From positions 1 through 24,484 of the IMG/VR virus record IMGVR_UViG_3300028895_000039: a DNA stretch of 24,484 bases; one strand, written 5' to 3'. The notes below the pieces were generated by a model. It saw nothing but the letters and a program-made list of their open reading frames with translations, did no database searches and was not told the DNA's origin. Of this stretch, positions 759 through 21,271 are shown piece after piece. Position 1 is the first letter of the stretch. Each line of letters opens with the position of its first letter. Source of the stretch: a virus. Made by a program: the position numbers and the translations under genes.

Positions 759-980
759 ATGGATTATAAAATAATAAACGGCAACAACATAGATGTATTA
801 AAGCAGGAGCGTAAGACAATGATCACTGATGCTTTTAGAAACTTTGTTAGAACTAATCACGCTGTTCAAGCAAAAATACTCGAAGTAGAAGCTAATAAAC
901 TTAGTAGAGCTCTACACCTTACAATTAACGAAGTAAATGAACTAAAAGAAACTGTTCAAAAAATTAAGGAACATGATTAA
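759..980 (+). CDS. Small helical hypothetical protein
   Basis: This short charged, mostly helical protein ends in an amphipathic segment (INEVNELKETVQKIKEHD) that looks like a coiled coil. The start is uncertain. ATG 714 would overlap the previous gene by 38 nt; ATG 759 gives 73 residues; ATG 819 gives 53 residues and has the best ribosome binding site (AGGAG at 805-809, nine bases upstream). I list 759 as the middle choice because codons between 759 and 819 look coding, but 819 is a serious alternative. The last eight bases overlap the start of the lipoprotein gene at 973. No family is recognised. Confidence 0.65.
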   Translation: MDYKIINGNNIDVLKQERKTMITDAFRNFVRTNHAVQAKILEVEANKLSRALHLTINEVNELKETVQKIKEHD

Positions 981-1140
981 GCTACTACCAATACTTCTTT
1001 TAACAGGTTGTGCTACAATATACGATAACGCTGATCCTTGTCAAAAACCTATTCATCCAAATTGGTGTGGTTCCGCAAAAGAGTCTGTTATAATTATTAT
1101 TGATAAGAAACAGTACAAAGGTAAATATTATAGACAATAA
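973..1140 (+). CDS. Small lipoprotein (55 residues)
   Basis: The product begins MIKLLPILLLTGCATIYD. It has a short basic N terminus, a hydrophobic core and a clear lipobox Leu-Thr-Gly-Cys with Cys13 as the lipidated residue. The mature part is about 43 residues with two more cysteines (Cys23, Cys32) and a basic, Tyr-rich C terminus. It would be exported and lipidated in the cell envelope of a Gram-negative host. The start overlaps the upstream gene by eight bases and AAGGA lies very close, so coupling is likely. Size and topology fit an outer-membrane spanin (Rz1-like) or an exclusion lipoprotein. It is not Pro-rich like Rz1, so the role stays open. Confidence 0.75.
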   Translation: MIKLLPILLLTGCATIYDNADPCQKPIHPNWCGSAKESVIIIIDKKQYKGKYYRQ

Positions 1141-1226: not shown

Positions 1227-1263
1227 AGCCCTAAGTTACTCCAATTGCTTAGGGCTTTTTTTT
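1227..1263 (+). terminator. Rho-independent terminator
   Basis: The stem AGCCCTAAG / CTTAGGGCT (9 bp, 1227-1235 with 1248-1256) encloses a 12-base loop and runs into a stretch of eight T (1256-1263). It ends the early-positioned small-gene block after the lipoprotein gene. A late-promoter-like box begins only four bases further on. Confidence 0.9.
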
Positions 1264-1266
1264 GCA

Positions 1267-1279
1267 CTAAATATTAGTT
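1267..1279 (+). promoter_or_regulatory. T4-like late promoter candidate for the STAS gene
   Basis: CTAAATATTAGTT lies between the terminator and the ATG at 1298. It matches the other boxes of this window (T-A-A-A-T-A core, then an AT-rich element containing TTA) and resembles the T4 late consensus TATAAATA. The predicted start of transcription would be about 1280, giving a leader of under 20 bases with AAGGA at 1286-1290. This is inferred from position and similarity; no downstream or -35 element was expected or seen. Confidence 0.55.
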
Positions 1280-1297: not shown

Positions 1298-1681
1298 ATG
1301 CCGTGTTCATTACAACAAACAAAACAATGTATATGTCTTGGATGTGACGAGAGTTTCCGCACATTAATGCCTAATCTTGTTATTAAAGAAATACTAGAAG
1401 AAAAAACTGTTAAAATCGATATTAATAATCATTTTACTTTTGGAACATCAACCGAATTCTTAGATCTTGGTAAACAATGCTTCTTTAACAACACACTAAG
1501 ACACATAATAATTGACATGAGACATATTGAATTAGTATCACAAATTGATAGTTCTGCATTAGGTATGTTGATGTTATTACATGAAAAAGCCCCTAACGCT
1601 AAGTTTGAATTTCTAAACATGTCTAGCCAGATACAAAAAATATTCGAAATAACACGATTAGAAGAACGACTTAAACAATAG
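1298..1681 (+). CDS. STAS-domain protein (anti-sigma-factor-antagonist-like)
   Basis: The protein has 127 residues. Residues about 24-127 form a complete STAS domain: strands VIKEILEEKTVKIDI, a helix TSTEFLDLGKQCF, the strand HIIIDMRHI, then the signature VSQIDSSALGMLMLLHE, the strand KFEFLNMS, and a closing helix. The Asp84-Ser85-Ser86 motif is the site phosphorylated by anti-sigma kinases in SpoIIAA-type antagonists; it is intact. The sequence resembles the proteobacterial HsbA-like group more than Bacillus SpoIIAA. Residues 1-23 are an extra N-terminal segment with four cysteines (3, 11, 13, 16). AAGGA at 1286-1290 supports the ATG at 1298, although Met24 could start a bare STAS domain. 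The gene has its own candidate late promoter. A role in titrating a host anti-sigma factor or phosphorelay is inference. Confidence 0.88.
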   Translation: MPCSLQQTKQCICLGCDESFRTLMPNLVIKEILEEKTVKIDINNHFTFGTSTEFLDLGKQCFFNNTLRHIIIDMRHIELVSQIDSSALGMLMLLHEKAPNAKFEFLNMSSQIQKIFEITRLEERLKQ

Positions 1682-1706: not shown

Positions 1707-1720
1707 CATAAATACATTAC
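1707..1720 (+). promoter_or_regulatory. T4-like late promoter candidate for the terminase block
   Basis: CATAAATACATTAC is seven of eight identical to the T4 late box TATAAATA and is followed by an AT-rich element as in T4. It lies in a 53-base gap. Transcription would begin near 1720, directly before AGGAG at 1721-1725 and the ATG at 1735, leaving a very short leader. Confidence 0.65.
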
Positions 1721-1734
1721 AGGAGATTAAACCT

Positions 1735-1947
1735 ATGGCTGAACAATCTAAGGATAACAAACCCGAAGTGGAAGAAATTGATTATGTTGATTTCACCAAC
1801 AATTTATTTTTAACTCCTGTTGGTGTAAGAAACATATTAGAGTCGCTTGAGTACGAAGATGATGATGTTACAACATTGTGGGCATTAGATGATCATCTTA
1901 AAGAAATAGCTAAAAATAGCGAGAAACAGCAACAAGATGTCAAGTAA
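1735..1947 (+). CDS. Small acidic hypothetical protein
   Basis: This 70-residue, strongly acidic protein has runs such as EVEEIDYVDF and LEYEDDDVTTLW and a Lys/Gln-rich C terminus. Its ribosome binding site, AGGAGA at 1721-1726, is well spaced. It is the first gene of the packaging block and overlaps the next gene by 11 bases, so the two are probably co-translated. No domain is recognised. Its position next to the small terminase suggests a packaging accessory, but nothing in the sequence proves it. Confidence 0.75.
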   Translation: MAEQSKDNKPEVEEIDYVDFTNNLFLTPVGVRNILESLEYEDDDVTTLWALDDHLKEIAKNSEKQQQDVK

Positions 1948-2257
1948 AAACTTTAATGGTGGTGTTAGATATGCTGATTGGTTAAAGACTTTAACTCCAG
2001 CTGAACGACAAGATCATTTACTTGAACGAGCACAACGCAGATCTAACAAACAAATGATGGAAGATATTAAAGGACATAATGCTCCTTACTGGGTTGCTGG
2101 ACTTAATAATGCCGCTGTTATACTTCTACAAAAAGCAATTACTGAAGGTGATGTTCAAGCATTTACCGCAGTATGGGATCGCATAGTAGGTAAGCCAAAA
2201 GAAGAAATACAAGTAGATGCAGAAACTCCTTTACCATGGAACGATGACCTTGACTGA
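1937..2257 (+). CDS. terS: Terminase small subunit (putative)
   Basis: The protein has 106 residues. The central segment WVAGLNNAAVILLQKAITEG, followed by a DVQAFTAVWDRIVGKPKEE stretch, is typical of phage small terminase subunits, where a helical core ends in a D-R-(I/L)-V-G-K-P motif. The N-terminal basic helices (ERAQRRSNKQ) could bind DNA at the packaging start site. Small terminases assemble as rings and present phage DNA to the large subunit; the gene's position two genes upstream of the large subunit agrees. Family assignment rests on the motif and context, not on a search. Confidence 0.75.
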   Translation: MSSKNFNGGVRYADWLKTLTPAERQDHLLERAQRRSNKQMMEDIKGHNAPYWVAGLNNAAVILLQKAITEGDVQAFTAVWDRIVGKPKEEIQVDAETPLPWNDDLD

Positions 2258-2445: not shown

Positions 2446-2760
2446 ATGTATAGATCTAAATTCGAAAAACAAGTAGCAAAGAAGTTACACAAAGCAGACT
2501 ATGAACCTTACAGTCTACCTTTTGTGACACACCATACATATACACCTGACTTTGTTGATGGTAATAAAGTGTATGAAGCTAAAGGTTTCTTCAGAACTGG
2601 TGATATTAAAAAGTATCTCGCTATTAGGGACGAATTAATTAATCAAGGTAAAGAATTTATATTTGTGTTACAGGTGCCTAACAAGCCAGTAAGAAAAGGT
2701 GCTAAACTCACTATGGCAAAGTGGTGTGAGAAAAATAATATACAATGGATAACTGTATAA
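2446..2760 (+). CDS. Endonuclease I, T7 gp3-like Holliday-junction resolvase
   Basis: The protein has 104 residues. The motifs HTYTPDF (residues 30-36) and YEAKG (43-47), followed by a basic KK helix and a terminal WCEKNNIQW, match the T7 endonuclease I family. The expected catalytic set is present: Glu7, Asp35, Glu44 and Lys46, as in a PD-(D/E)XK-type nuclease. T7 gp3 is about 149 residues, so this is a compact version whose N-terminal dimer-swap region seems short. The enzyme resolves branched DNA so that replicated DNA can be packaged. It abuts the large terminase gene (TAA directly followed by GTG), which suggests that it works with the packaging motor. Confidence 0.88.
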   Translation: MYRSKFEKQVAKKLHKADYEPYSLPFVTHHTYTPDFVDGNKVYEAKGFFRTGDIKKYLAIRDELINQGKEFIFVLQVPNKPVRKGAKLTMAKWCEKNNIQWITV

Positions 2761-4044
2761 GTGCCATTAAGTGAAGCGCAAAAACAAGTCGCTAAAAGTA
2801 ACAAGCGATTTAGAGTTTTAATTACAGGTAGACGATTTGGTAAGACTACATTATCAATTCATCAACTATGTAAATTTGCTCACATGCCAAATCAAGAAGT
2901 ATGGTATGTTGCACCGTCTTACAGAATGGCCAAAGGCATTGTGTGGCGTAAACTTAAAAAGAAATTACAATCCTTACATTGGATTGAGAAAGCAAATGAA
3001 TCAGAACTAACTATCGAATTAAAGAGCGGTAGTCGTATCTGCTTAAAAGGAGCAGACAACTATGATTCATTACGAGGAGTTGGTATCGACTTCCTCATTA
3101 TTGACGAGTTTGCTGATGTTGATCCATTGGCATTCTACGAGGTGTTAAGACCTACACTGTCTGACACAAACGGTCAAGCATTGTTTGTAGGCACACCTAA
3201 AGGCACAGGCAATTGGAGTTATGACCTGTTTCATATGTTCAAGGACGACCCTACAAACTGGGACAGCTTTACCTTTACAACATTAGAAGGTGGATTTGTT
3301 TCAGAAGAAGAGCTACAATCAGCTCGTGAACTATTAGATGAGAGAACATTTAAACAAGAGTATGAAGCATCATTTGAAACAACATCTAATAGAGTGTGGT
3401 ACAACTTTAATAGAGATACACATGTGAAAGAATACGAGTTACCAGATGCTGTTCAGAAGTCTAAAACAGAAATGTGGAACAAACTTCGTGATGTACCAGA
3501 TGTTATATATGTAGGCATGGACTTTAACATCGATCCTATGTCAGCAGTTATATTCGCTAGACATAAAGATACAATTCATGTTATAGATGAAATAGAAATA
3601 TTTGGATCTAACACAGATGAAATGGTTGAGGAACTAAAGAATAGATACCCAACTCAAAAAATTACAGTATTTCCAGACCCAGCGTCTAGACAAAGAAAGA
3701 CTAGTGCTGGTGGTCTAACAGATTTAAAGATTTTACAAAATGCAAAGTTCGCAGTTAAAGCACCTAACAGTCATAACCCAATTAGGGATGGTGTTAATGC
3801 AGTTAACGGTAAACTTAAGAATGCAAATGGCGATGTTACAATGTATGTTGACCCTAAATGTCGCCGGTTAATAGAGTGTTTAGAAAAGCACAGTTATAAA
3901 GAAGGTACTACCATTCCAGAAAAGGATAAAGGGTATGACCACTTAGCAGATGCAATGCGATACTATATTGATTATGAGTTTCCAGTACGCCGCATCACAG
4001 AAAAACAAGCACCTCAGCGTTGGGGTCACAGCATCGGAGCATAA
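2761..4044 (+). CDS. terL: Terminase large subunit
   Basis: The protein has 427 residues and both terminase domains. ATPase: Walker A GRRFGKTT (23-30), Walker B FLIIDE (111-116), coupling motif GTP (144-146). Nuclease (RNase H fold): GMDFNIDP with Asp254, FPDPASRQRK near residue 300, and GYDHLADAMRYY with Asp393 and Asp397. It cuts and translocates DNA into the prohead through the portal. The start is GTG, directly after the stop of the endonuclease gene. The first internal Met (residue 42) lies beyond Walker A, so GTG must be right or the gene would be broken. There is no obvious Shine-Dalgarno, which again suggests coupling. GGAG near its 3' end (4036-4039) is the ribosome binding site of the portal gene. 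Confidence 0.97.
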   Translation: MPLSEAQKQVAKSNKRFRVLITGRRFGKTTLSIHQLCKFAHMPNQEVWYVAPSYRMAKGIVWRKLKKKLQSLHWIEKANESELTIELKSGSRICLKGADNYDSLRGVGIDFLIIDEFADVDPLAFYEVLRPTLSDTNGQALFVGTPKGTGNWSYDLFHMFKDDPTNWDSFTFTTLEGGFVSEEELQSARELLDERTFKQEYEASFETTSNRVWYNFNRDTHVKEYELPDAVQKSKTEMWNKLRDVPDVIYVGMDFNIDPMSAVIFARHKDTIHVIDEIEIFGSNTDEMVEELKNRYPTQKITVFPDPASRQRKTSAGGLTDLKILQNAKFAVKAPNSHNPIRDGVNAVNGKLKNANGDVTMYVDPKCRRLIECLEKHSYKEGTTIPEKDKGYDHLADAMRYYIDYEFPVRRITEKQAPQRWGHSIGA

Positions 4045-7888: not shown

Positions 7889-7904
7889 CACGAGGAATTA
7901 AACA

Positions 7905-8405
7905 ATGGCATATATGTATCCAGCACCTGGTGTAGCAGCAAAGCAAATGTGGATTAAAATCAAGGATGCGGACAATGTAGGTGGTTACACAGCTAACTCA
8001 CTTATGACTGTTCCAGCATTACAAGATACTACAATCAACAACGCTAAAGATGTTTTCACTTGGACTCAATTAGATAACACTGGTAAATTTTCATTACCAA
8101 CAACTTCTGATAACTCATTAACTGGTAACTTAGTTGTAGATAAAGACACTTTCTACGGCGATGGAACTACTGATGGTATTCAGGATATTGGTATTAACGG
8201 TGCTTCAGTAGCATCAGTAAAAGTCGCATTCGAACTTTACACTGGTGATGACTCTGAAGGTAACGACGGAAAATACATTTCGGGCGAAGGCTATGTAACT
8301 GGTCTTTCACCAACAGTATCATCTGATAGTCCTGTTTGGGTATCACCATTTACTATCACAGTAGACGGTGAGTACACAATCGCTGACACAGCACAGGTAA
8401 CTTAA
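7905..8405 (+). CDS. Major tail (tube) protein
   Basis: This 166-residue, beta-rich protein with few charged helices begins MAYMYPAPGVAAKQMWIK. Segments such as FTWTQLDNTGKFSLPTTSDN and VASVKVAFELYTGDD alternate as strands, as in lambda gpV-like tube subunits. The C terminus PFTITVDGEYTI is strand-like. It follows the tail terminator gene and is closed by a very strong terminator, which suits a highly expressed structural gene. It stacks as hexameric rings around the tape measure. Family assignment is from context and pattern. Confidence 0.8.
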   Translation: MAYMYPAPGVAAKQMWIKIKDADNVGGYTANSLMTVPALQDTTINNAKDVFTWTQLDNTGKFSLPTTSDNSLTGNLVVDKDTFYGDGTTDGIQDIGINGASVASVKVAFELYTGDDSEGNDGKYISGEGYVTGLSPTVSSDSPVWVSPFTITVDGEYTIADTAQVT

Positions 8406-9491: not shown

Positions 9492-11873
9492 ATGGCTGAT
9501 TTAACATATAGAGTTGATATAGATACCAGACAAGGTATCGCCAACATTAAAAAACTAAACACCTCATTAAAGCAAACTGAAAAGATTACTAAGAAAACTG
9601 ACAGTGCTTTTACTAAGATGGGTAAGGGATTACTGTCTGTTAAAACTGCGGTAGTAGGCTTAGTTGGTGCTGCCGGTCTTGGTGCTTTAGTTAAACAATC
9701 ACTTGCTTCTGCTGATGCACTAGGTAAAGTAGCAGACAAAGTTGGTGTTACTGTAGAAGAACTACAAGAACTTCGCTTTGCTGCTGAACAGTCAGGTGTT
9801 GCCTCTAAAACATTAGATGTATCACTACAAAGATTTTCAAGAAGAATTGGTGAAGCCGCACAAGGCACTGGTGTATTATCTAAAGTGCTTAAAGAGACTG
9901 GTGTTAGTATTAGAAACACTGATGGCACCTTACGCTCTACTAACGATATATTCAACGAATATGCTGATGCTATTGCCAACACAGCTGATCAACAAGAAAA
10001 ACTTAGATTAGCTTTTGCTGCCTTTGACTCAGAAGGTGCCGCACTTGTTAACTTGTTTAAGAATGGTTCCGAAGGTGTTAACGCATACCGTAAAGAGTTA
10101 CATGAACTTAATGGTGTTGTAGGTCGTGATCAAGTTGATGCCGCAGCACGAATGAATGATGCTTGGGGTAAGGTACAGACACAATTTAGAGCTATCGCTA
10201 CTATAGCTGCCGCAGAACTTGCTCCAGCACTTGAAGAAATTGCCAATAATATTCAACTTGCTTTAAAAGACAAAGAGAAGGTTGCTGAGATTGCTAATGC
10301 CTTTAGAAAGTTTGGTGAGGCACTTGTATTTGTTGTTGATAACTTTGGACCATTATTAGAAGCAGTTAAAAATTTAGCTATTGCTTGGGCTACATTAAGC
10401 ATCGCTAAACATATTAAATTATTTGATGCTTTCAAAACTGCTACTGCAAACTATGGTAAGGCTGTGGCAAGTGCTGGCTCTGCATCAGCTACTGCCGCTG
10501 GTATGTTTGGTAAACTTCAAAAAGCTGGTATTGCTTTAATTGGTCGATTGGGTGCTATTGGTGCTGCTGTGTGGTTCTTTACTGAAGCTGTACAAGGTAA
10601 CATAGGTTGGGTTAATCAATGGGCTAGAACATTAGGTGTTGTTAATACTTCTTTACAAGACCAACTTAACTTAGTTAAAAAACTTGAAACAGGTGATTGG
10701 GGTGATAGATTAAGATTCTTTGGTCCTGATGCTGAGTTATTCTCGCCAAGCACATGGGTTGAATACTGGAACGATGAAGAGTTAGCAAAAGCTCGTGCTG
10801 AAATTGAAGCTCAGATGCAAAAACAAGCTGATGAACTTAAGAAAGCACAAGATGAAATACTTGAAGCATCAACTGTTAACAAACCTACATTAGATGCTTC
10901 ATTAAACGGTGGTACTGATAACTCTGAACTTATATCTCAAAACAGAGACTTAGCACTCAGTTACTTGCCACTTAAAGAAGCACACGCTGATTACATTAAG
11001 AGTATTCAGAAGTTACAAGCCGCTAAAGCATTGGATATTAAAAACTCTGCTTTATATGATGAGGCTATTGCCGCGGCAGCTAATGCTTATAAAGAGTACG
11101 CCGACAGTTTAGACCCAGCTATTCAAGCACAGAAGAAGTTACAAGAAGAGCGTAAAGCTGAGAATGATCAACTTAAAGATATTGTTCAGTCATTAGCTGA
11201 TGAAGCTGATGTTTATAGTGACATTAAGAAACTTAAAGAACAAATCAACAAAGCTTCAGCTAGAGGTTTAGTTAATGAACGAACTCGTTTAGCTGCTTTA
11301 CAACAAATTGCTAAACAAGAAAAAGAAATTAGAGAGCAACAGTTAGCTGAGTCACGCAAATGGTCTGATGGTTGGCAACGAGCATTTAATGACTATGTTG
11401 ATGAAGCTACCAATGCCGCTAAACATGCTGAAGAAACATTCCGTGTTGCTACACAAGGCATGGAAGATGCTATTGTTAACTTTGCTAAAACAGGTAAGTT
11501 TGAATTTAAGTCATTCTTATCTGATATTGTAGATCAATTACTACGCTCACAGGCTCAACAGTTAGTTGCTAACTTGTTTGGCGGTCTAGGGTTAGGTGGT
11601 GCGACAGGTAAGTCAGGCTTTGCTGGCTTCTTTGCTAACGGTGGACTTATTCCTAGTGGACAGTTTGGTATTGTTGGCGAACAAGGTCCAGAATTAGTTA
11701 GTGGTCCAGCACAAGTTACACCATTAAATGGAGCTGGTGGTACAACTAATGTTAATTACTATATTCAGGCATTTGATACAAAATCTTGGCAACAACGACT
11801 TGCTACAGAGCCTGAGTTTTTATATGCTGTTACCGAACAAGGTAGAGCAGGAATTCCGAGTAGGAGGGTTTAA
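9492..11873 (+). CDS. Tail tape measure protein
   Basis: The protein has 793 residues. The N terminus TYRVDIDTRQGIANIKKLN is typical of tape measures. A hydrophobic segment at about 48-75 (TAVVGLVGAAGLGALV) and another near 340-365 (IALIGRLGAIGAAVWFF) may insert into the membrane on DNA ejection. Coiled coils lie near 430-460 and 575-620. Near 665-705, FEFKSFLSDIVDQLLRSQAQ and the region after it match the lambda-type tape measure C terminus, followed by FANGGLIPSGQFGIVGEQGP, a usual ending. At the accepted 1.5 angstrom per residue the tail would be at most about 120 nm. GAGGA at 9478-9482 is the ribosome binding site. Confidence 0.94.
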   Translation: MADLTYRVDIDTRQGIANIKKLNTSLKQTEKITKKTDSAFTKMGKGLLSVKTAVVGLVGAAGLGALVKQSLASADALGKVADKVGVTVEELQELRFAAEQSGVASKTLDVSLQRFSRRIGEAAQGTGVLSKVLKETGVSIRNTDGTLRSTNDIFNEYADAIANTADQQEKLRLAFAAFDSEGAALVNLFKNGSEGVNAYRKELHELNGVVGRDQVDAAARMNDAWGKVQTQFRAIATIAAAELAPALEEIANNIQLALKDKEKVAEIANAFRKFGEALVFVVDNFGPLLEAVKNLAIAWATLSIAKHIKLFDAFKTATANYGKAVASAGSASATAAGMFGKLQKAGIALIGRLGAIGAAVWFFTEAVQGNIGWVNQWARTLGVVNTSLQDQLNLVKKLETGDWGDRLRFFGPDAELFSPSTWVEYWNDEELAKARAEIEAQMQKQADELKKAQDEILEASTVNKPTLDASLNGGTDNSELISQNRDLALSYLPLKEAHADYIKSIQKLQAAKALDIKNSALYDEAIAAAANAYKEYADSLDPAIQAQKKLQEERKAENDQLKDIVQSLADEADVYSDIKKLKEQINKASARGLVNERTRLAALQQIAKQEKEIREQQLAESRKWSDGWQRAFNDYVDEATNAAKHAEETFRVATQGMEDAIVNFAKTGKFEFKSFLSDIVDQLLRSQAQQLVANLFGGLGLGGATGKSGFAGFFANGGLIPSGQFGIVGEQGPELVSGPAQVTPLNGAGGTTNVNYYIQAFDTKSWQQRLATEPEFLYAVTEQGRAGIPSRRV

Positions 11874-12259: not shown

Positions 12260-12822
12260 TTGATTTAAGTTCATATGCAACAATTGAGTCAGCTTTATTT
12301 TTAAAGTGGGAAGTTCCTAACGAAACTCCGGCATATCTAAGTGATTATCACACAGATGTAACTATTGATGGTAATATATACACTAATATTGGCACATTCT
12401 TAGGAGCAACTGCACCGCAAAGCGAGCTTAAGGCATCAAGATCACAACTTACAATATCTTTAAGTGGTATTCCTACTGGTTCTGTACAGGATATTTTAAC
12501 ACAAGAGATAAAAGGTAGTAGTGTACAGTTATTTAGAGGTTTCTTTAATGCGTCAACTCATGCTTTATTAGATTTGTCGCCAAGTGATAACCCAGTGTCA
12601 CAGTTTAAAGGTGTTGTTACAAACTACGCGGTATCTGATAACTACGATAATGTTGCCGGTACTGCTACAACTACAATATCACTAACATGTAACAGTATTG
12701 TAGAAGTATTACAAAAGAAAGTGAGTGGCCGTAGAACTAATCAAAATGATTTTGATGATAACTCAATGGATAGAGTACAAGCACTTGCTAATTCACCATT
12801 TAACTTTGGAGCACCTCAATAA
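12256..12822 (+). CDS. Tail tip protein (lambda gpL / DUF2163-like)
   Basis: This 188-residue, mainly beta protein contains FLKWEVPNETPAYLSDY, LTISLSGIPTG, an LFRGFF strand and a TTISLTCNSIVEVLQK strand. It closes with SGRRTNQNDFDDNSMDRVQA followed by NSPFNFGAP. The GRRTN then F-FG ending is typical of tail-tip proteins that sit between the distal tail ring and the hub. In some families this end carries cysteines for an iron-sulfur cluster (lambda gpL); I see only one cysteine, so no cluster is predicted. Overlaps of 4 and 1 bases link it to its neighbours. Confidence 0.75.
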   Translation: MIDLSSYATIESALFLKWEVPNETPAYLSDYHTDVTIDGNIYTNIGTFLGATAPQSELKASRSQLTISLSGIPTGSVQDILTQEIKGSSVQLFRGFFNASTHALLDLSPSDNPVSQFKGVVTNYAVSDNYDNVAGTATTTISLTCNSIVEVLQKKVSGRRTNQNDFDDNSMDRVQALANSPFNFGAPQ

Positions 12823-15800
12823 TGGGATTCTTATCAGGCGTATGGAATTGGTTCACAGGTAACTCAGTTACCTCTCAGATTGCTAAAGTAGCAATGCTTG
12901 GGTATGCTTCGAGATTACTCAACGAAGAAACTAGTTCTGACAAAACAGACTTACCGGATGCAGTAGATCCAGGTGTTCGGTTACAACTTAACCCATCGAC
13001 AGAAACAAAGATACCTGTATTATACGGTGATGCTTTTTTTGGTGGTAACATTGTTGATGCTGCTATTAGTAGTGATAATAAAACAATGTGGTATGTTTTA
13101 GCACTTGCTGAAACAACTGGAACAAAATATAGTGATAGCAATGCAACATCTTATACATTTCACGATGTTTATCTTAATAACAATCGTGTTGTATTCAAAT
13201 CAGATGGTTATACAGTAGATTACACATTAGATCAATCATCTAATCAAGACATTAACATGAGAGACTTAGTTAAAGTCTACTTGTATGTTGATGGAGTACC
13301 AACACAACCAGATGGCGAAACTGGTACAACACCTGCAGCCCATACACTTATATCCCATTGGGATGCAATTAACTATGCAATGGATGGACTTATCTTTGCT
13401 ATTGTAGAAGTTAACTATAACCAAACAAAAGGCGTTAGTGGATTACCTCAATGTACCTTTAACATTGAAACAAACATGACTAAACCTGGTGATGTGTTGT
13501 ACGATTACATGACTAATAATAGATATGGTGCCAACATTGCAACTGCTGACATTGATACAACTTCAATAACTGCAATCAACACATACTCTGATACTGGCTT
13601 TAGCTACACAGACAAAAATGCTGTTGGGCAAACAGGTAATGTCACCATTAATGGTTTAGTAGATACTAAAACACAATGTTTACGAAACATGGAGGAAATG
13701 TGTGAGGCAGTTAACTCATGGCTTTCATACGATATACATGAAGGTAAGTGGAAAGTTATCATTAACGATACCACTGCTTCTAGCGCAACTATTACTGATA
13801 GCCATATTATTGGCGAGATTGGCATCACCGGTACATCTCTTACTCAGTTATACAATGCTGTTGATGTACAGTATCAGAACACAGATATTAAAGATAAAAC
13901 AGACTTTGTTAAAATTGAAATAGATGCACTTGACTTATTTGATAATGAGCCAAGAACCACACTACAGTTAAAAATGCCGTTTACTAATAAACAGGCTGTT
14001 GCTATGAAGGTGGGTTTAATTGCACTCAAACAAGCTCGTGCTGATAAGATTATTACATTTAGAACTGATTATAGTTTTATTAACTTAAAAGCAGGTGAAG
14101 TTGTTACTATTACATCAAGTTCCGCTTCATTAAATGCTGCACCATTCCGCATTATGAATGTTAAACAGGTTGAAGGGACTAACGGCGAAATACAATGTGA
14201 ATTTACAGCATTAGAATACTTAACCGCAGTATATGATTATGATATTACTGAGTTTAATGTAGAGACAGACAGTGGTATATTAGGCATTGGTACTATCGGT
14301 AAGCCAGATATACCTGTAACAACCAACAATAGTTCTGCTAACATGCCTCATGTATTAATTGAATCAGAAGTACCAAGTGGTATTGTTGATACTATGGAGT
14401 TTTGGTTAACTTACGATACAACAGAACCTAATGATGCACTTAGAAACTATGTACACATAGGATCGCAATCAAACACTGGTGGCGCATTATATTCAGAAAA
14501 CGATGATGTAGATTACAGATACAACTCTCTACAAACAGCTGACTTTTATGTTAAGGTGCGTGGTACTAACGCAATGGCTGTTGGTCCATTTAGTGATCCA
14601 AGCGGGTTAATTGAGTTTGTTCCAGAAGTAGTTGGTGATACATTAAGTGATGTACCTGTAGATTTTGGCGGCCAGTTAATGTCACTGGGTTTATTAACAT
14701 TGCTTAACCACTTAGATACATTAATGGATATCTTTACTGGTGATGTAGGTATCATGGAAGGGCTTGAACAAATATTCTTCCCTGGCTCAACAGAACCAAC
14801 ACAATCATCAGTAGCCGATCACTTATTAGCTGATCAAAACTTTATTGATAGTTTACCGATACCAGATGAACTTAACGATTTATCTGATGTTAGTGCCGCA
14901 GCTCCGACTGTAGATGACTTTCTTGTTTATGATGGTGCTAACTGGGTACCATCTGCTAACGCACCAAGTGGTGTTAATGCAATTGATGATTTAACAGATG
15001 TTGACACAAGTACAGTTACACCTAATGTTGATGATATATTAGTATGGGACGGCACTAACTGGGTACCACAACCTGGATGCTGTGATACAGACTTAGATGG
15101 TTGTGAGTTAACTATCGGTGGCATGTCCCCAGTTGATGATTATACTGCTTCGGCGTTAGATGATACAGTTAGCATTTGGTTCAATACAGATGATCCTTTG
15201 GATCCAAACGGTATTTTAGAGAACAGTGGTTCAGTATATCTTTATACATCTGATGGTACTTTAATAGAAACTAAAACAGCCGCACAGTGTACATTCGCAG
15301 GCTGGACTATTACTATACCATTTACAAACAGAGTCGCATGTACTGATTACTACATATTAATGGATCGTGGTGTAGGTAAAGACTGTAATGGTTGTTTAAC
15401 ACCTCGTATATGTTTACCAACTACATGGAACTTTACAACTACAACAGATGACTTACCAGTTGTGCCATCAGTACCTTACAATCCAACTTATGCTGTAGAT
15501 GATCCAGATGCACCTAGTGTTTGGACACCAACCCCTGCTATCAATCAAGTAGGCGAAAGCACAGACTGTCAAGCAACATTTACTGGTCGCAGTGGAGATG
15601 TTGAATTAACATTTAATCAAGAAGTTAAACCCGGGCTTGGGCAGTTACACATTAAAGACGGTGCTACTACTGTTCATAGTTTTGAGTCTTGTGAAATATT
15701 TGCAGATGGTAACATTGAATGGACAGAAGATGGTTACACAACAACAGGGGTTATACCTAGCTTCTTTACAAGTCCAGACAAGACATACAACATCACAATA

Positions 15801-16625
15801 GATGCTAATTTTGTTTCTGGCAGAATACCTGAATGTCCAAATAGTGCTACCGCAGTTGACTTTACACCAGACACAGTTGTTACTGAACCGTTACAAGGTC
15901 CATCAAACAACGAAACGACTGGTAGCTTTACAAGTAGTTCTGGTCACTATGAATTCGGAACACACGGTAACCCAGCAGTAGGTACCGGCAATGTATATCT
16001 TAAAGATAGAAACACTGGTGCAGTTATTGAAACTAAAACAGCCGCTGATGCTACATTAGATACTAGTGATGCCTTAGAGATTGTTACAGAAAAACGAGTT
16101 AACTGTTCACCAAACAACGGTGATACTGAAGTAAGTAGAAATACTAATATCACAATACAGTTTAATAAAACTATTATACCACAAACTGGTAACTTCTACT
16201 TGTACAAAGGTGCTACATTAGTGCAGACATTTGATATTACAACTAAGTTTACAGATGATATGACATCTGGTATTATTAGAGTAGGCACTGATACAGTTGT
16301 GTTAAACCCAACAGAGTGTTTAGAGGCTGAAACAGTGTATCATATCCGCTGGGACGCTAATGTTGTTAAAAGTATTTGTCAACTACCGCTTGCTGCTCAA
16401 ACAGATGATTCTGCGCTGAGCTTTACAACGATAAGTAAAGTAACACCAACAATGACATTCCCAACATTAGCACCAAATGCAAATCAGTCTATTAACGAGA
16501 CTGGTATAATAATTGATGCTCCTGGATCATTAGCACCAGGTAGTGGTAGTCTTTTCATATATGATGAAAATGACAATTTAATTGAAACAATCACTGCTGG
16601 TGATTCAAGAGTAAGTATTAACTAA
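12822..16625 (+). CDS. Tail hub / host-specificity protein (J-like) with Ig-like modules
   Basis: The protein has 1267 residues. Residues about 1-470 form the hub: VLYGDAFFGGNIVDAAISSD near the start and the late motif LKAGEVVTITSSSASLNAAP, then EFTALEYLTAVYDYD, as in J-type and similar hub proteins. Residues about 500-600 look like a fibronectin-type domain (FYVKVRGTNAMAVGPFSD). Two NWVP modules lie at about 685-750. The rest is Ig-like modules of the Big_5/SbsA kind (GSVYLYTSDGTLIET, ITIQFNKTIIPQTGNFYLY), unusually rich in cysteine. The protein ends at a TAA in the middle of such a module (DENDNLIETITAGDSRVSIN), and the same frame continues beyond. It overlaps the previous gene by one base. 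Confidence 0.88.
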   Translation: MGFLSGVWNWFTGNSVTSQIAKVAMLGYASRLLNEETSSDKTDLPDAVDPGVRLQLNPSTETKIPVLYGDAFFGGNIVDAAISSDNKTMWYVLALAETTGTKYSDSNATSYTFHDVYLNNNRVVFKSDGYTVDYTLDQSSNQDINMRDLVKVYLYVDGVPTQPDGETGTTPAAHTLISHWDAINYAMDGLIFAIVEVNYNQTKGVSGLPQCTFNIETNMTKPGDVLYDYMTNNRYGANIATADIDTTSITAINTYSDTGFSYTDKNAVGQTGNVTINGLVDTKTQCLRNMEEMCEAVNSWLSYDIHEGKWKVIINDTTASSATITDSHIIGEIGITGTSLTQLYNAVDVQYQNTDIKDKTDFVKIEIDALDLFDNEPRTTLQLKMPFTNKQAVAMKVGLIALKQARADKIITFRTDYSFINLKAGEVVTITSSSASLNAAPFRIMNVKQVEGTNGEIQCEFTALEYLTAVYDYDITEFNVETDSGILGIGTIGKPDIPVTTNNSSANMPHVLIESEVPSGIVDTMEFWLTYDTTEPNDALRNYVHIGSQSNTGGALYSENDDVDYRYNSLQTADFYVKVRGTNAMAVGPFSDPSGLIEFVPEVVGDTLSDVPVDFGGQLMSLGLLTLLNHLDTLMDIFTGDVGIMEGLEQIFFPGSTEPTQSSVADHLLADQNFIDSLPIPDELNDLSDVSAAAPTVDDFLVYDGANWVPSANAPSGVNAIDDLTDVDTSTVTPNVDDILVWDGTNWVPQPGCCDTDLDGCELTIGGMSPVDDYTASALDDTVSIWFNTDDPLDPNGILENSGSVYLYTSDGTLIETKTAAQCTFAGWTITIPFTNRVACTDYYILMDRGVGKDCNGCLTPRICLPTTWNFTTTTDDLPVVPSVPYNPTYAVDDPDAPSVWTPTPAINQVGESTDCQATFTGRSGDVELTFNQEVKPGLGQLHIKDGATTVHSFESCEIFADGNIEWTEDGYTTTGVIPSFFTSPDKTYNITIDANFVSGRIPECPNSATAVDFTPDTVVTEPLQGPSNNETTGSFTSSSGHYEFGTHGNPAVGTGNVYLKDRNTGAVIETKTAADATLDTSDALEIVTEKRVNCSPNNGDTEVSRNTNITIQFNKTIIPQTGNFYLYKGATLVQTFDITTKFTDDMTSGIIRVGTDTVVLNPTECLEAETVYHIRWDANVVKSICQLPLAAQTDDSALSFTTISKVTPTMTFPTLAPNANQSINETGIIIDAPGSLAPGSGSLFIYDENDNLIETITAGDSRVSIN
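14867..15072 (+). repeat. Two tandem LSDV/NWVP fibre modules
   Basis: Two neighbouring modules code for LNDLSDVSAAAPTVDDFLVY then DGANWVPS, and for IDDLTDVDTSTVTPNVDDIL then WDGTNWVPQ, spaced by about 115-120 bases. This motif (L-D-(L/V)-S-D-V, then D-W-G-NWVP) is a common spacer in phage tail fibres and marks the move from the hub to the receptor-binding part. Confidence 0.75.
16623..16625 (+). other. In-frame TAA that splits an Ig-like module
   Basis: The frames 12822-16625 and 16638-20717 are in the same phase, separated only by this TAA and four sense codons. Sequence before and after aligns to a single Ig-like unit when compared with the copy near 17260-17460. AAGGA overlaps the stop (16624-16628), nine bases before ATG 16638, so re-initiation is possible. 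Confidence 0.85.
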
Positions 16626-16637
16626 GGAAATAGATTA

Positions 16638-19600
16638 ATGGGTAAAATAAGAATAGATTTAGATGGCAGCTTTACAGAAAACAAGGCGTACTATGTTGTA
16701 GCCGATGAAGGTTTTACTGTAGATGCTAACACAGGTGAACCATCTCCAGCAATTACAGATACTAATGCTGTTACATTTACAGCGTTACCTGGATACACAG
16801 ACATCGAGACGGTTCCGGCAGATGATGCTGTTTCAGCAGATGACTTTCAGTTTGATGTAATTTCAAAAAGTAAAAGAATAGACATTACATTCGAACAAGA
16901 TGTATTTGTTGGTACTGGTGATATTAGATTATACAATAGTTCAGATGCTGTTATTCAAACATTTGATGTAACCACAGATGTTTACTTTAGATATTCGCCA
17001 CCAGACGCACCTAACACAACTGGTAAAAAGGTAACTATCTTTGCTAACTACATCACTAACTGGTTAGACGACACCAGCCCGAGTTACATACAAATTGATG
17101 ATGGTGCTTTTCTTGATGCTAACTGTATGACTAACAGAGCTATTGATACTCGCACAAGTTCTGATGTTACTGTTGATTTTAATTTTCAAACACTACCTAC
17201 AAGACAATCTGTATCTGAAAGTTACATTGATATTCAATACTGCGAAGGTGGTTTGGTTAAAGGGTCAGGTAATGTTTACCTTTATGACAGCACAGACACA
17301 TTAATCGAAACTATAGATGTTGATACAAGCGGATCTATTGTTACTATTACAAACGATGATGATCTTACAAATAACGGTTTACGCATTGTACCGAAGTACG
17401 AGTTACAAGAAGAAACAGATTACTATGTAACTTCTGATCGTGGTGTTATTGGCGATACACATGGTTTTAGTTATGGACCTATAGTAAAAAATGACACTGG
17501 TGTTGAAACTACATTTTATAAGCCTTATGTATTAGGTGACTTCATTATACAATTTAATCGTGATGTACGCAGAGGCGAAGGTAAAGTATATCTTAAAAAA
17601 CAAAGCGATGACTCTACAGTTAAGTGGTGGGATATACAATGGGACGACGAATGGATTGGAACAAATGATTTAACTGCTGATGATTTAATTACATTAACAG
17701 ATAACAGAGCATTTTTTAAAGCAGAAGTAGCACAAGGTATTGGATACTATATCTTAATTGATGATGGTGCATTTGTTGATTTAGATCAAATTCCTTTTAC
17801 TGGTTATTCGTTAGCAAGTGATTGGGACTTTGTTATATATGATGGTCCTGCAGTACAATCAGCATCATATGCATCCGGTGGTGATGTTACACTTGCATTC
17901 AATGAAGATATTAACCACGAAGTTACTGGTAACTTATATCTTCATTTAGATATTGATGATAGTTTAGTTAATACAGTTTCAACTAGCGGAGCAACAATCT
18001 TAAACGAAGACTTAACATTTGCGTCGGGTATTTTCGGGTTAGGCGGCGACGATTATTATGTGTTAACTGATAAGGAAATTGTCGCTAATGATTATAATTT
18101 CCAGCATAGAGCAGAAACTGACAAAACAATTGCTACATTTACTTCAACAACATCGATTCTTGCGTTAACACCAAACGATGATAGTTCGGATGTTACTGAT
18201 TTAGCAACTACTGGGTTTAGTATTCAATTTGATAGGAATATTACTGCTGGTGCTGGTAATATTACTCTAAAGAAAACAAGTGATGATAGTACAGTAGAAA
18301 CATTTGATTCCAATGATTTTAATATAGTAGATGACACAGTCACTTGTATTGTTACTGTAGAACTTGAAGATTTAACTGGTTATTATGTCACTGTTGACAA
18401 TAATGCTATTAACAGTACAGGCGGTTATTTTGATGGTATTACTGATAAGACATATTTTAACTTTACAATTAACGGTCTAAACATTGCTTCAAGTACACCG
18501 TCAGATAACGAAACTGGAGTTGATTACTTTGCTACAACTGGTATTACTATTGTGTTTGATGATGACATTACAGTTAACACAGGTAACATATATCTTAAGA
18601 AAACATCTAATGATAGCATTATAGAAACATTTGATGTTACAACTGATATCACAACACCAACATCAAGTAGTATTAATTTTATTGTAACACAAACTTTGCT
18701 AGGTACAACAGATTATTATATTACTATTGATGCCGGGACATTTACTGATACTAACAACAATGATTATAATGGGTTAACTGATAAAACAGTATTAAATTTT
18801 GAAACTTCAGGAATGGACATTTCGACTTCATCTCCATTAGATAACGAAACCGGTGTAGATTATTTTGCTACAACTGGTATCGACATTACTTTTGATACTG
18901 GGTTTACTATTAATACAGGTAACATATATTTAAAAGATTCATCTGATGATAGCACAATAGAAACATTTGATGTAACAACTGATATTACAAAAGTAGATGA
19001 AACTATTTCATTTACATCAACTGTTAATTTAGAACCATTGACTGGATGTTATATTACAATTGATAGTGGTGCATTTACTGATGACAATTCTATTGTTTAC
19101 GGAGGAATAAGTGATAAAACTAAATTAAACTTTACAATTGATGTTGAACCAGCAATTTCGTCAAGTAATCCACCAGATGATGGTGATATGGGCAGTAAAC
19201 AAGTAAGTGTTACTTTTGATGTTAACATGAAAGTCGGTACAGGTAATATTACAATGAAGAAAACATCTGATGATAGTACAATAGAAACATTTGATGTAAC
19301 AACTGATGTTAATATTACTAATAATGTTGTATCATTTACTGTTACTGCTGAGTTAGACCCATACACTGGTTATTATTTCTTAATTGATGATGGGGCATTA
19401 ATTTCAACAGAAAATATTATATATAATGGCATTAGTTCTAAGACTGGATGGAATGCTACTTCAACATACGATATTAATACTGTAACACGCATATTAGAGT
19501 TTACTACAACAGACACTTTAGGTTCTTGTAATTGTGGTGTTACTGTGTTAGATGTAGTTGCTGATTCGAGTAATAATAGATATGTTACAGGTTATATCGA

Positions 19601-20717
19601 ACATCCCACCGATGGAAGAAGTTTTGTTGCTAAATTAGATAGAGATGGAGTTGTTCAATGGTCTAGGGACTTAGAAAATCAATTAGGAGTATATCCTAAA
19701 ATGGTTTCTATTGATATTGATAGTTCTGGTAATGTATATGTTGCGGGTCGTGACGCAAGCGAATCACAGGCTATTATGGGCAAGTATAACAATTCAGGAA
19801 CTATACAATGGCAAAAAGAGTTTGTTGATACCAACCATTTCTATTCAATTACAGATATTAAAGTGTTGTCCGATGACACATTTATTGTGCTCGGTGCCAC
19901 TAGTACATCTGATTCTGTTGGTATTGCAAAATATAATGGTAGCGCATCATTACAATGGATGAAAGAAATTGCATTAACATCATTATCGTATGATACTGAT
20001 CCTCAATATAACAATTTATATATTGATTCAAGTGATAATATCTATTTTGGTATTAGAGAATCTGCAAACGGCGACACACATTTTGTTAAGATGTTGTCAA
20101 CTGGTGTAATTGACTGGCAAAAATCATTTGATTTTAGTAGTGGAACTTCATATTATAGAGGTTGTGTTGTAGATAGTTCAAATAATGTATATGTTGGTGT
20201 ACACCCTAATAAAATTATTAAATTTAATAGTGCTGGTGTTTTCCAAAGTAAGCATAATGTATCCAGTGCAGGACAAATAACATCGATGTACATTGATGAC
20301 GATGATTCAATCTATATTGGTTTTTCAGGTGGTTATGTAGGAAAATTAAATTCTTCATTAGTAGGACAATGGGGCAACCAAATTAGAGTAGGACAACCAG
20401 GAATACTTACTACATCAGAATATATTACAAGAACTTATGTTGATAACTTTAATCTTATAATGGCTGGCTGGGCTTCTGAAATTTCACCAGATCCTAACGA
20501 AAAATATGGCCAGATTTATGAATTTAAACCTAGCGGTGGTGGTTTAGGAACATATGATTATATTTCTTATGAATTAGGCACAACACCAGAAGTTACAACA
20601 GATACAGAAATTACAGTTAATACAAGTTCGTTATCTACTTCGTCGGCAACTCATGCCCATAGTGCAAGTTCATTTAATGATGCTACTGGTACTGTTATTG
20701 TGGTCGATCTTAAATAA
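16638..20717 (+). CDS. Ig-repeat adhesin / tail fibre protein with C-terminal beta-propeller
   Basis: The protein has 1359 residues. The first 50 or so complete the Ig-like module cut by the stop at 16623. About eight more modules follow, each with a GTGNIYLKKTSDDSTIETFD strand pair, a DYYITID strand and a closing LNF strand (Big_5/SbsA-like). The four between residues about 500 and 940 are closest to each other. From about 947 to 1320 the fold changes to seven repeats of the type IDSSGNVYVAG, then KYNNSGTIQWQKEF, which fit a seven-bladed beta-propeller. The end is Ser/Thr-rich. The likely role is a long stalk with a terminal receptor- or glycan-binding head. The start is supported by AAGGA nine bases upstream, but the gene may originally have been one with the gene before it. 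Confidence 0.88.
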   Translation: MGKIRIDLDGSFTENKAYYVVADEGFTVDANTGEPSPAITDTNAVTFTALPGYTDIETVPADDAVSADDFQFDVISKSKRIDITFEQDVFVGTGDIRLYNSSDAVIQTFDVTTDVYFRYSPPDAPNTTGKKVTIFANYITNWLDDTSPSYIQIDDGAFLDANCMTNRAIDTRTSSDVTVDFNFQTLPTRQSVSESYIDIQYCEGGLVKGSGNVYLYDSTDTLIETIDVDTSGSIVTITNDDDLTNNGLRIVPKYELQEETDYYVTSDRGVIGDTHGFSYGPIVKNDTGVETTFYKPYVLGDFIIQFNRDVRRGEGKVYLKKQSDDSTVKWWDIQWDDEWIGTNDLTADDLITLTDNRAFFKAEVAQGIGYYILIDDGAFVDLDQIPFTGYSLASDWDFVIYDGPAVQSASYASGGDVTLAFNEDINHEVTGNLYLHLDIDDSLVNTVSTSGATILNEDLTFASGIFGLGGDDYYVLTDKEIVANDYNFQHRAETDKTIATFTSTTSILALTPNDDSSDVTDLATTGFSIQFDRNITAGAGNITLKKTSDDSTVETFDSNDFNIVDDTVTCIVTVELEDLTGYYVTVDNNAINSTGGYFDGITDKTYFNFTINGLNIASSTPSDNETGVDYFATTGITIVFDDDITVNTGNIYLKKTSNDSIIETFDVTTDITTPTSSSINFIVTQTLLGTTDYYITIDAGTFTDTNNNDYNGLTDKTVLNFETSGMDISTSSPLDNETGVDYFATTGIDITFDTGFTINTGNIYLKDSSDDSTIETFDVTTDITKVDETISFTSTVNLEPLTGCYITIDSGAFTDDNSIVYGGISDKTKLNFTIDVEPAISSSNPPDDGDMGSKQVSVTFDVNMKVGTGNITMKKTSDDSTIETFDVTTDVNITNNVVSFTVTAELDPYTGYYFLIDDGALISTENIIYNGISSKTGWNATSTYDINTVTRILEFTTTDTLGSCNCGVTVLDVVADSSNNRYVTGYIEHPTDGRSFVAKLDRDGVVQWSRDLENQLGVYPKMVSIDIDSSGNVYVAGRDASESQAIMGKYNNSGTIQWQKEFVDTNHFYSITDIKVLSDDTFIVLGATSTSDSVGIAKYNGSASLQWMKEIALTSLSYDTDPQYNNLYIDSSDNIYFGIRESANGDTHFVKMLSTGVIDWQKSFDFSSGTSYYRGCVVDSSNNVYVGVHPNKIIKFNSAGVFQSKHNVSSAGQITSMYIDDDDSIYIGFSGGYVGKLNSSLVGQWGNQIRVGQPGILTTSEYITRTYVDNFNLIMAGWASEISPDPNEKYGQIYEFKPSGGGLGTYDYISYELGTTPEVTTDTEITVNTSSLSTSSATHAHSASSFNDATGTVIVVDLK
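18145..19460 (+). repeat. Four tandem Ig-like coding units, period 324-336 bases
   Basis: A shared GAAACATTTGAT anchor appears at 18297, 18624, 18960 and 19284, spaced 327, 336 and 324 bases apart, all multiples of three. A longer match, GATAACGAAAC then ATTACTTTGCTACAACTGG or close to it, begins at 18504 and 18840 (336 apart). Similarity at the DNA level suggests recent duplication and possible repeat-number change. Confidence 0.8.
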
Positions 20718-20788: not shown

Positions 20789-21271
20789 ATGGCAACCCTT
20801 ACTTTTAACGACTACATTAGCGGATCTAATGTATCTTCAATTAAAAAACAATATCCATCTTCACAATTCATAGTCAACTACGATGCTGGCGAAGATGTTA
20901 CAGACTGGACTTTTTCAGCTGATTATCAAACTATAGTAGTAGACAACATTGCATTTGATCGTGCAGGCGAACCTAACTTTACTTCAGCACAAGTATTAGG
21001 TTATTTTCCAGCAGTTACAATGACAGGCGGTGATGCTCCTGTAGTTACTGATGCTGCAAACGGCCTTGTAAAGTTTACTATACCAGGTGATATGTATGAC
21101 GGCCCAATTAACCCGAATATTCGAAATATTGGTGTAGTTACAGTAGTTGGCTTTACAGTCGAAACAGATGATGGAACAAAAGATACAACAAGATATGCTC
21201 GCTTACAGTGTTGGGAGTCAGGTGTAGATCTCGGTGACCCTGCAACACATACCGGCTATGTAGCCTTATAA
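20789..21271 (+). CDS. Putative virion structural protein near the fibre genes
   Basis: This 160-residue, beta-rich protein has TTAGGAGAG at 20773-20781 as ribosome binding site. It begins MATLTFNDYISGSNVSSIKK, continues with FIVNYDAGEDVTDWTFSADY, and ends in a strand-rich part with TRYARLQCWESGVDL. The N-terminal two-strand pattern (VTDWTFSADYQTI) resembles small baseplate or fibre-attachment proteins, but I do not recognise a family. It is the first gene after the late promoter at 20728, and the following fibre gene starts 14 bases after its stop. A structural or fibre-attachment role is inferred from position. Confidence 0.75.
   Translation: MATLTFNDYISGSNVSSIKKQYPSSQFIVNYDAGEDVTDWTFSADYQTIVVDNIAFDRAGEPNFTSAQVLGYFPAVTMTGGDAPVVTDAANGLVKFTIPGDMYDGPINPNIRNIGVVTVVGFTVETDDGTKDTTRYARLQCWESGVDLGDPATHTGYVAL

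Follow-up and report, generated by a model that had tools for sequence, protein, structure and literature searches.

A STAS-domain protein gene of probable HsbA-like kinship behind a late-promoter-like site in an aquatic siphovirus-like phage

Positions 1298-1681 (+ strand) of the viral record IMGVR_UViG_3300028895_000039 are confirmed as a real gene for a STAS-domain protein, not a product of chance. Profile and tree comparisons support its membership of the HsbA-like subfamily of such small signalling proteins, with which bacteria free sigma factors from their inhibitors. The gene is accessory cargo, carried ahead of the packaging operon, probably with late expression from its own promoter-like site. 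The window, by which we mean the whole 24,484-nucleotide (24.5-kb) viral fragment analysed here, derives from an aquatic tailed phage of siphovirus-like type, and encodes a terminase, an SPP1-like portal, scaffold and capsid proteins, a lambda-type tape measure and large Ig-like tail genes. The features on which the argument draws are as follows.

975..1139, + strand: small lipoprotein-like ORF (MIKLLPILLLTGCA...DPCQ...WCG), the last of the upstream unit (from sequence)
1227..1263, + strand: intrinsic terminator with a 10-bp stem, 10-nt loop and T-run, the hairpin at 1227-1256 (RNA fold, -15.4 kcal/mol)
1268..1273, + strand: TAAATA core of a late-promoter-like site, 30 nt ahead of the STAS start codon (motif and relatives)
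1298..1681, + strand: predicted HsbA-like STAS-domain protein of 127 aa, with the STAS domain at about residues 27-126 (profile, fold and tree)
1298..1366, + strand: extra N-terminus of 23 residues, four of them Cys (alignments with bacterial relatives)
1709..1714, + strand: second TAAATA, a separate late-promoter-like site of the next gene, at 1735 (motif)
1735..2257, + strand: two small genes separating the STAS gene from the packaging genes (ORFs)
2446-2760, + strand: T7-type endonuclease I (domain/profile match)
2761-4044, + strand: large terminase (domain/profile match)
1268 (STAS gene), 1709 (gene at 1735), 5390 (scaffold gene) and 20729 (gene at 20789), + strand: TAAATA sites preceding genes (motif scan)

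The gene had been described in the original prediction as placed between a terminator and the packaging genes, and the map agrees with this description, with the terminator at 1227-1263 upstream and the endonuclease I and terminase genes (2446-4044) downstream. This terminator is missing from the automated terminator scan, in which the loop limit was 8. Lipoprotein-like ORFs with the DPC...WCG pattern also occur upstream of the large terminase gene (TerL) in relatives, and in L011 and L012 one stands directly before a terminator and TAAATA, as in the window; what follows at once in these two loci is a small-terminase-like gene. In the window, the second of the two intervening genes (1937-2257) resembles, at 46-48% identity, a gene that immediately precedes TerL in several related contigs, a place expected for the small terminase subunit. 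The terminase itself is closest to uncultured IMG/VR contigs (up to 71%), followed by phage DSL-LC06 (55%) and Pelagibacter phages (approximately 49%). DSL-LC06, a complete circular genome of 29.8 kb (L082), has an annotation with several glycosyltransferase and surface-sugar genes and without replication genes. The T7-type endonuclease I gene, which precedes the terminase here, has the reverse orientation in L002 (4-183), the nearest relative. The region 12822-20717 of the window encodes a pair of very large tail proteins, of 1267 and 1359 aa, in which bacterial Ig-like (Big_5) domains recur.

The frame at 1298-1681 is unbroken over 127 codons, begins with an ATG behind an AAGGA ribosome-binding-like sequence and has a third-position composition (GC3 0.23) like that of the phage structural genes. 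Alignments show residues 1-23 to be a Cys-rich extension (C3, C11, C13 and C16) that is absent from bacterial relatives, which start near M24 of the phage protein; in the AlphaFold model, pLDDT is below 50 at residues 1-17. M1 is favoured as the probable start because of the AAGGA upstream and the TAAATA 30 nt before the first ATG. A start at M24 would match the relatives, but it is M1 alone whose ribosome-binding-like sequence is clear and whose distance from TAAATA is the usual one. Pfam gave no match for the Cys-rich N-terminus, and its interpretation as DUF1289-like was rejected.

Both the STAS signature and the strand-helix order, which the original prediction had called intact, are borne out by profile and structure. 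Pfam model PF01740 (STAS) matches residues 38-123 with E=4.6e-7 and 30 bits, above its curated cut-off of 22.6, while the NCBIfam model ant_ant_sig (E=8e-6) and likewise spore_II_AA fall below their own cut-offs. The sequence IDSSALGML occupies residues 83-91 and preserves the whole phosphoacceptor motif, D84-S85-S86-A-L-G-M-L. The elements of the AlphaFold model (mean pLDDT 69, and 82-87 across residues 71-120) follow the STAS order (E27-32, E37-42, H51-61, E69-73, H85-97, E102-106, H110-119), and the protein ends at residue 127 with no further domain after the STAS fold. The top Foldseek matches in the PDB are the anti-sigma antagonists SpoIIAA (with SpoIIAB), RsbV (with RsbW) and TM1442, at E values of 4e-5 and up, and the best VIA-align match, SpoIIAA, superimposes over 98 residues at 2.7 A with a Z score of 10.2. 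A fold search of BFVD with the same model returned nothing below E 0.001.

Sequence comparison with bacteria further suggests to which group of STAS proteins the phage protein belongs. A tblastn search of plasmid records first led to a Vibrio STAS gene which, on inspection of the ORFs, sits behind CheD-, CheB- and chemoreceptor-like genes and is followed by a gene for a REC-PP2C-GHKL protein (by Pfam). Of 398 genomes from the phylum to which the Vibrio genome G051 belongs, 77 gave matches, the strongest with E 2e-9 and 35% identity, and the best of them have in common the signature F-x-F-x2-H-x2-F-R ... DSSALGMLLLLRE ..., which we take to be of the HsbA/CrsA type. A profile built from 30 of these proteobacterial matches, with the phage protein left out, gives the latter 65.6 bits, and two other viral STAS proteins (on contigs L096 and L137) 85.6 and 74.3 bits; the same profile gives TM1442 52.6 and SpoIIAA 32.4 bits, both from sequences entered by hand, and two other Vibrio STAS proteins 23-28 bits. 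In a maximum-likelihood tree, the phage protein falls on the HsbA-like side of a split from the RsbV/SpoIIAA types (support 98/97), on a branch so long (5.16) that its exact position is unsure, and within a bacterial set gathered by similarity to the phage protein, which favours grouping with it. The kinship with HsbA-like proteins for which a phylogeny had been proposed is thus supported by both profile and tree. Within the first part of the signature, F46, F48 and F54 are kept and the His and Arg are absent, as they also are in one bacterial member (L117), and the alignment places three additional residues before IDSS in the phage protein relative to its bacterial relatives.

Homologues of the gene are scarce among phages. 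PF01740 has no match in any of 50 related records, and no HsbA-like ORF was found at 80 terminase-related loci, 50 of which reach at least 1.5 kb upstream of TerL; the gene is therefore accessory cargo in the slot between terminator and late-promoter-like site. A scan of 2.9 million IMG/VR contigs for [LIM]DSSALGM, which counts exact-motif copies only and perhaps does not include the source record itself, yielded ten stretches, of which two are HsbA-like STAS genes (L096/L136 and L137). Searches with the single sequence found no convincing relative in IMG/VR, among GTDB genomes or in phage GenBank, and PHROGs gave it no meaningful match; known STAS proteins themselves match PHROGs only weakly. 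More distant STAS matches, obtained with a Thermotoga query, lie in unannotated phage records, some labelled Listeria or Staphylococcus and others faecal. Judged from these searches, HsbA-like STAS proteins seem to be very rare in known phages.

A recent passenger without benefit, or a protein that is a virion part only, would fit the long tree branch, the lack of a homologue in related phages and the state of one of the two other viral copies, that of the T4-like contig L096 (49 kb; 7900-8192), which adjoins a GroES-like gene and is broken by an in-frame TAA. The window's copy, with its intact frame, conserved motif, GC3 like that of structural genes and promoter-like site of its own, instead suggests residence and expression, and we consider a passenger or purely structural role rather unlikely. 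The other viral copy, on the jumbo contig L137 (286 kb; 9510-10258), lies directly behind an acyl carrier protein (ACP) gene, and the two form a possible ACP-STAS pair. This arrangement bears on a role in which the STAS domain binds ACP or part of a transporter, as the STAS domains of YchM and MlaB do, and the YchM-ACP structure 3ny7 is indeed among the fold matches. Yet the window holds no ACP or transporter neighbour, the MlaB model matches weakly (E=0.066) and the protein has kept the phosphoacceptor motif that typifies signalling STAS proteins, so that such a role appears improbable.

The original prediction had also given the gene its own late promoter, and the TAAATA at 1268 is a late-promoter-like element that the relatives corroborate. 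The + strand of the window has seven copies of TAAATA, four of which lie just before genes. Coding sequences contain it twice against 9.8 expected from synonymous-codon shuffles, and its reverse complement three times against 16, with none of 300 shuffles as low. Counts over 773 kb of sequence from relatives are 435 for the gene strand and 63 for the opposite one. All 53 scaffold genes there have the motif in front of them, as against none of 78 TerL genes and none of 46 capsid genes, although these relatives are not mutually independent. The TAAATA before late genes of the siphovirus-like group (L002-L081) often stands right behind a hairpin. The late promoter of T4, named in published papers as TATAAATA, is read by the gp55 sigma; like it, the TAAATA core of this phage group precedes late genes on the coding strand and is avoided elsewhere. 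From these patterns we infer that the STAS gene is expressed late.

What did not emerge is the phage-encoded late sigma that had been supposed to read such sites: no match to Sigma70_r2 or Sigma70_r4 exceeds the cut-off in 19 related records, although these models may miss sigmas of the T4-gp55 type. No late transcription factor emerged when ten small genes from relatives were compared with PHROGs, and a sigma-70 promoter scan found sites no more numerous than in shuffles. The original reading of the protein as one that could free or redirect sigma factors in a phage with its own late sigma is thus supported in part, namely in its fold, motif, HsbA-like subfamily and late-promoter-like element, while an action on sigma factors or on a host partner switch is a reasonable proposal. 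The sigma results weigh against an action within the phage itself, in which the STAS protein would act on a phage sigma/anti-sigma pair reading the TAAATA promoters. The STAS gene is itself under TAAATA, in a phage group with strand-biased use of this element, but related loci with the same system have no STAS gene, and neither the sigma domains in the related records nor a GHKL domain in the window were found. We regard a phage-internal regulator as quite improbable.

The reading we prefer, to which we give close to an even chance, is that the protein takes the place of the host's own HsbA/CrsA late in infection, and that it would engage a GHKL anti-sigma kinase of the host and so alter which sigma factors are used. 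HsbA and CrsA bind the kinase/anti-sigma domain of HsbR and CrsR, which hold RpoS, and HsbA binds FlgM as well (PMC6482189). Made late as accessory cargo, the phage protein would bind a host kinase of the HsbR/CrsR type, by which its Ser85 might be phosphorylated; the sigma factor under that kinase (RpoS, or FliA through FlgM) would be displaced or redirected, and the stress or motility programme of the cell would be biased late in infection. We infer the late timing, the host partner and the direction of the effect. No GHKL (PF13581) or SpoIIE-PP2C (PF07228) domain lies above cut-off in the window, and any partner would therefore be the host's; the two other STAS-bearing viral contigs (L096 and L137) likewise have none above cut-off. 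A host partner is supported by the fold, whose nearest match is SpoIIAA in its crystal structure with the anti-sigma kinase SpoIIAB, by the HsbA-like profile and tree together with the late-promoter-like element, and by the neighbours of bacterial HsbA-like genes. These include genes of the HsbR/CrsR type, REC-PP2C (L112 and L114, both cut by the locus end) and REC-PP2C-GHKL (Vibrio, L084), and a CheW gene (L109); other bacterial members have no such neighbour within flanks of approximately 1.5 kb. Against a host partner stand the divergence of the phage protein, with its long branch, missing motif His and Arg and extended N-terminus, and the odd timing of late expression for redirecting host transcription. 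In addition, the record is a fragment, so that a phage-encoded partner may lie elsewhere, and an HsbR/CrsR-like partner in the host is presumed.

The serine of the D-S-S motif would also suit counter-defence, an alternative that the original prediction does not raise. STAS-GHKL pairs control the antiphage loci CapKS and VapKSC, of which VapKSC protects against a phage, with phosphorylation of the STAS serine as the proposed trigger (PMC13373217). By mimicking the antitoxin VapS or the repressor CapS, the phage protein could sequester the ssDNA-activated kinase (VapK/CapK) or keep hold of VapC, the toxin, and the defence would then stay silent during the late burst of phage DNA. The kept D-S-S serine and the lack of a kinase gene of its own in the fragment are compatible with such mimicry. 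Sequence nevertheless groups the protein with HsbA-like proteins (VapS and CapS being compared by description only), the winged-helix domain of CapS is absent and PADLOC, in a 2023 version older than these systems, gave no match. We hold counter-defence to be a serious rival, though an unlikely one.

Phages carry sigma factors and anti-sigma factors, and our literature search found no described phage anti-sigma antagonist. If working as a stand-in for the host protein, the STAS protein would offer another route for a phage to steer host transcription; alternatively, it would be a decoy against STAS-kinase switches newly shown to control antiphage immunity. Taken as a whole, it is a tentative proposition, held with somewhat less than even confidence, that a phage with a small siphovirus-like genome makes, late and from a TAAATA promoter like that of T4, an anti-sigma antagonist that seizes a partner switch of its host (RpoS/FliA) or else disarms an antiphage system of the STAS-kinase kind, VapKSC being an example.

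Among known systems, the closest likeness is to HsbA of P. aeruginosa and CrsA of S. oneidensis, known here by description, which likewise consist of a single STAS domain with a DSSALGML-type motif. The protein described here differs from them in being phage-encoded, in its Cys-rich N-terminus, in the absence of the H and R of FxFxxHxxFR and in its three-residue insertion before IDSS, and no gene for an HsbR/CrsR-type kinase-phosphatase adjoins it within the fragment. With SpoIIAA and RsbV of Bacillus and with TM1442 it has the fold (Z 9.5-10.2) and the D-S-[SA] motif in common, but structural identity is 14-17%, and SpoIIAA and TM1442 lie outside the HsbA-like group of the tree. CapS, with its C-terminal winged helix, and VapS, with a C-terminal helix reaching the toxin active site, are set apart from the phage protein by their descriptions. 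The viral STAS proteins of L096, whose copy has the in-frame TAA, and L137 resemble it in matching the HsbA-like profile.
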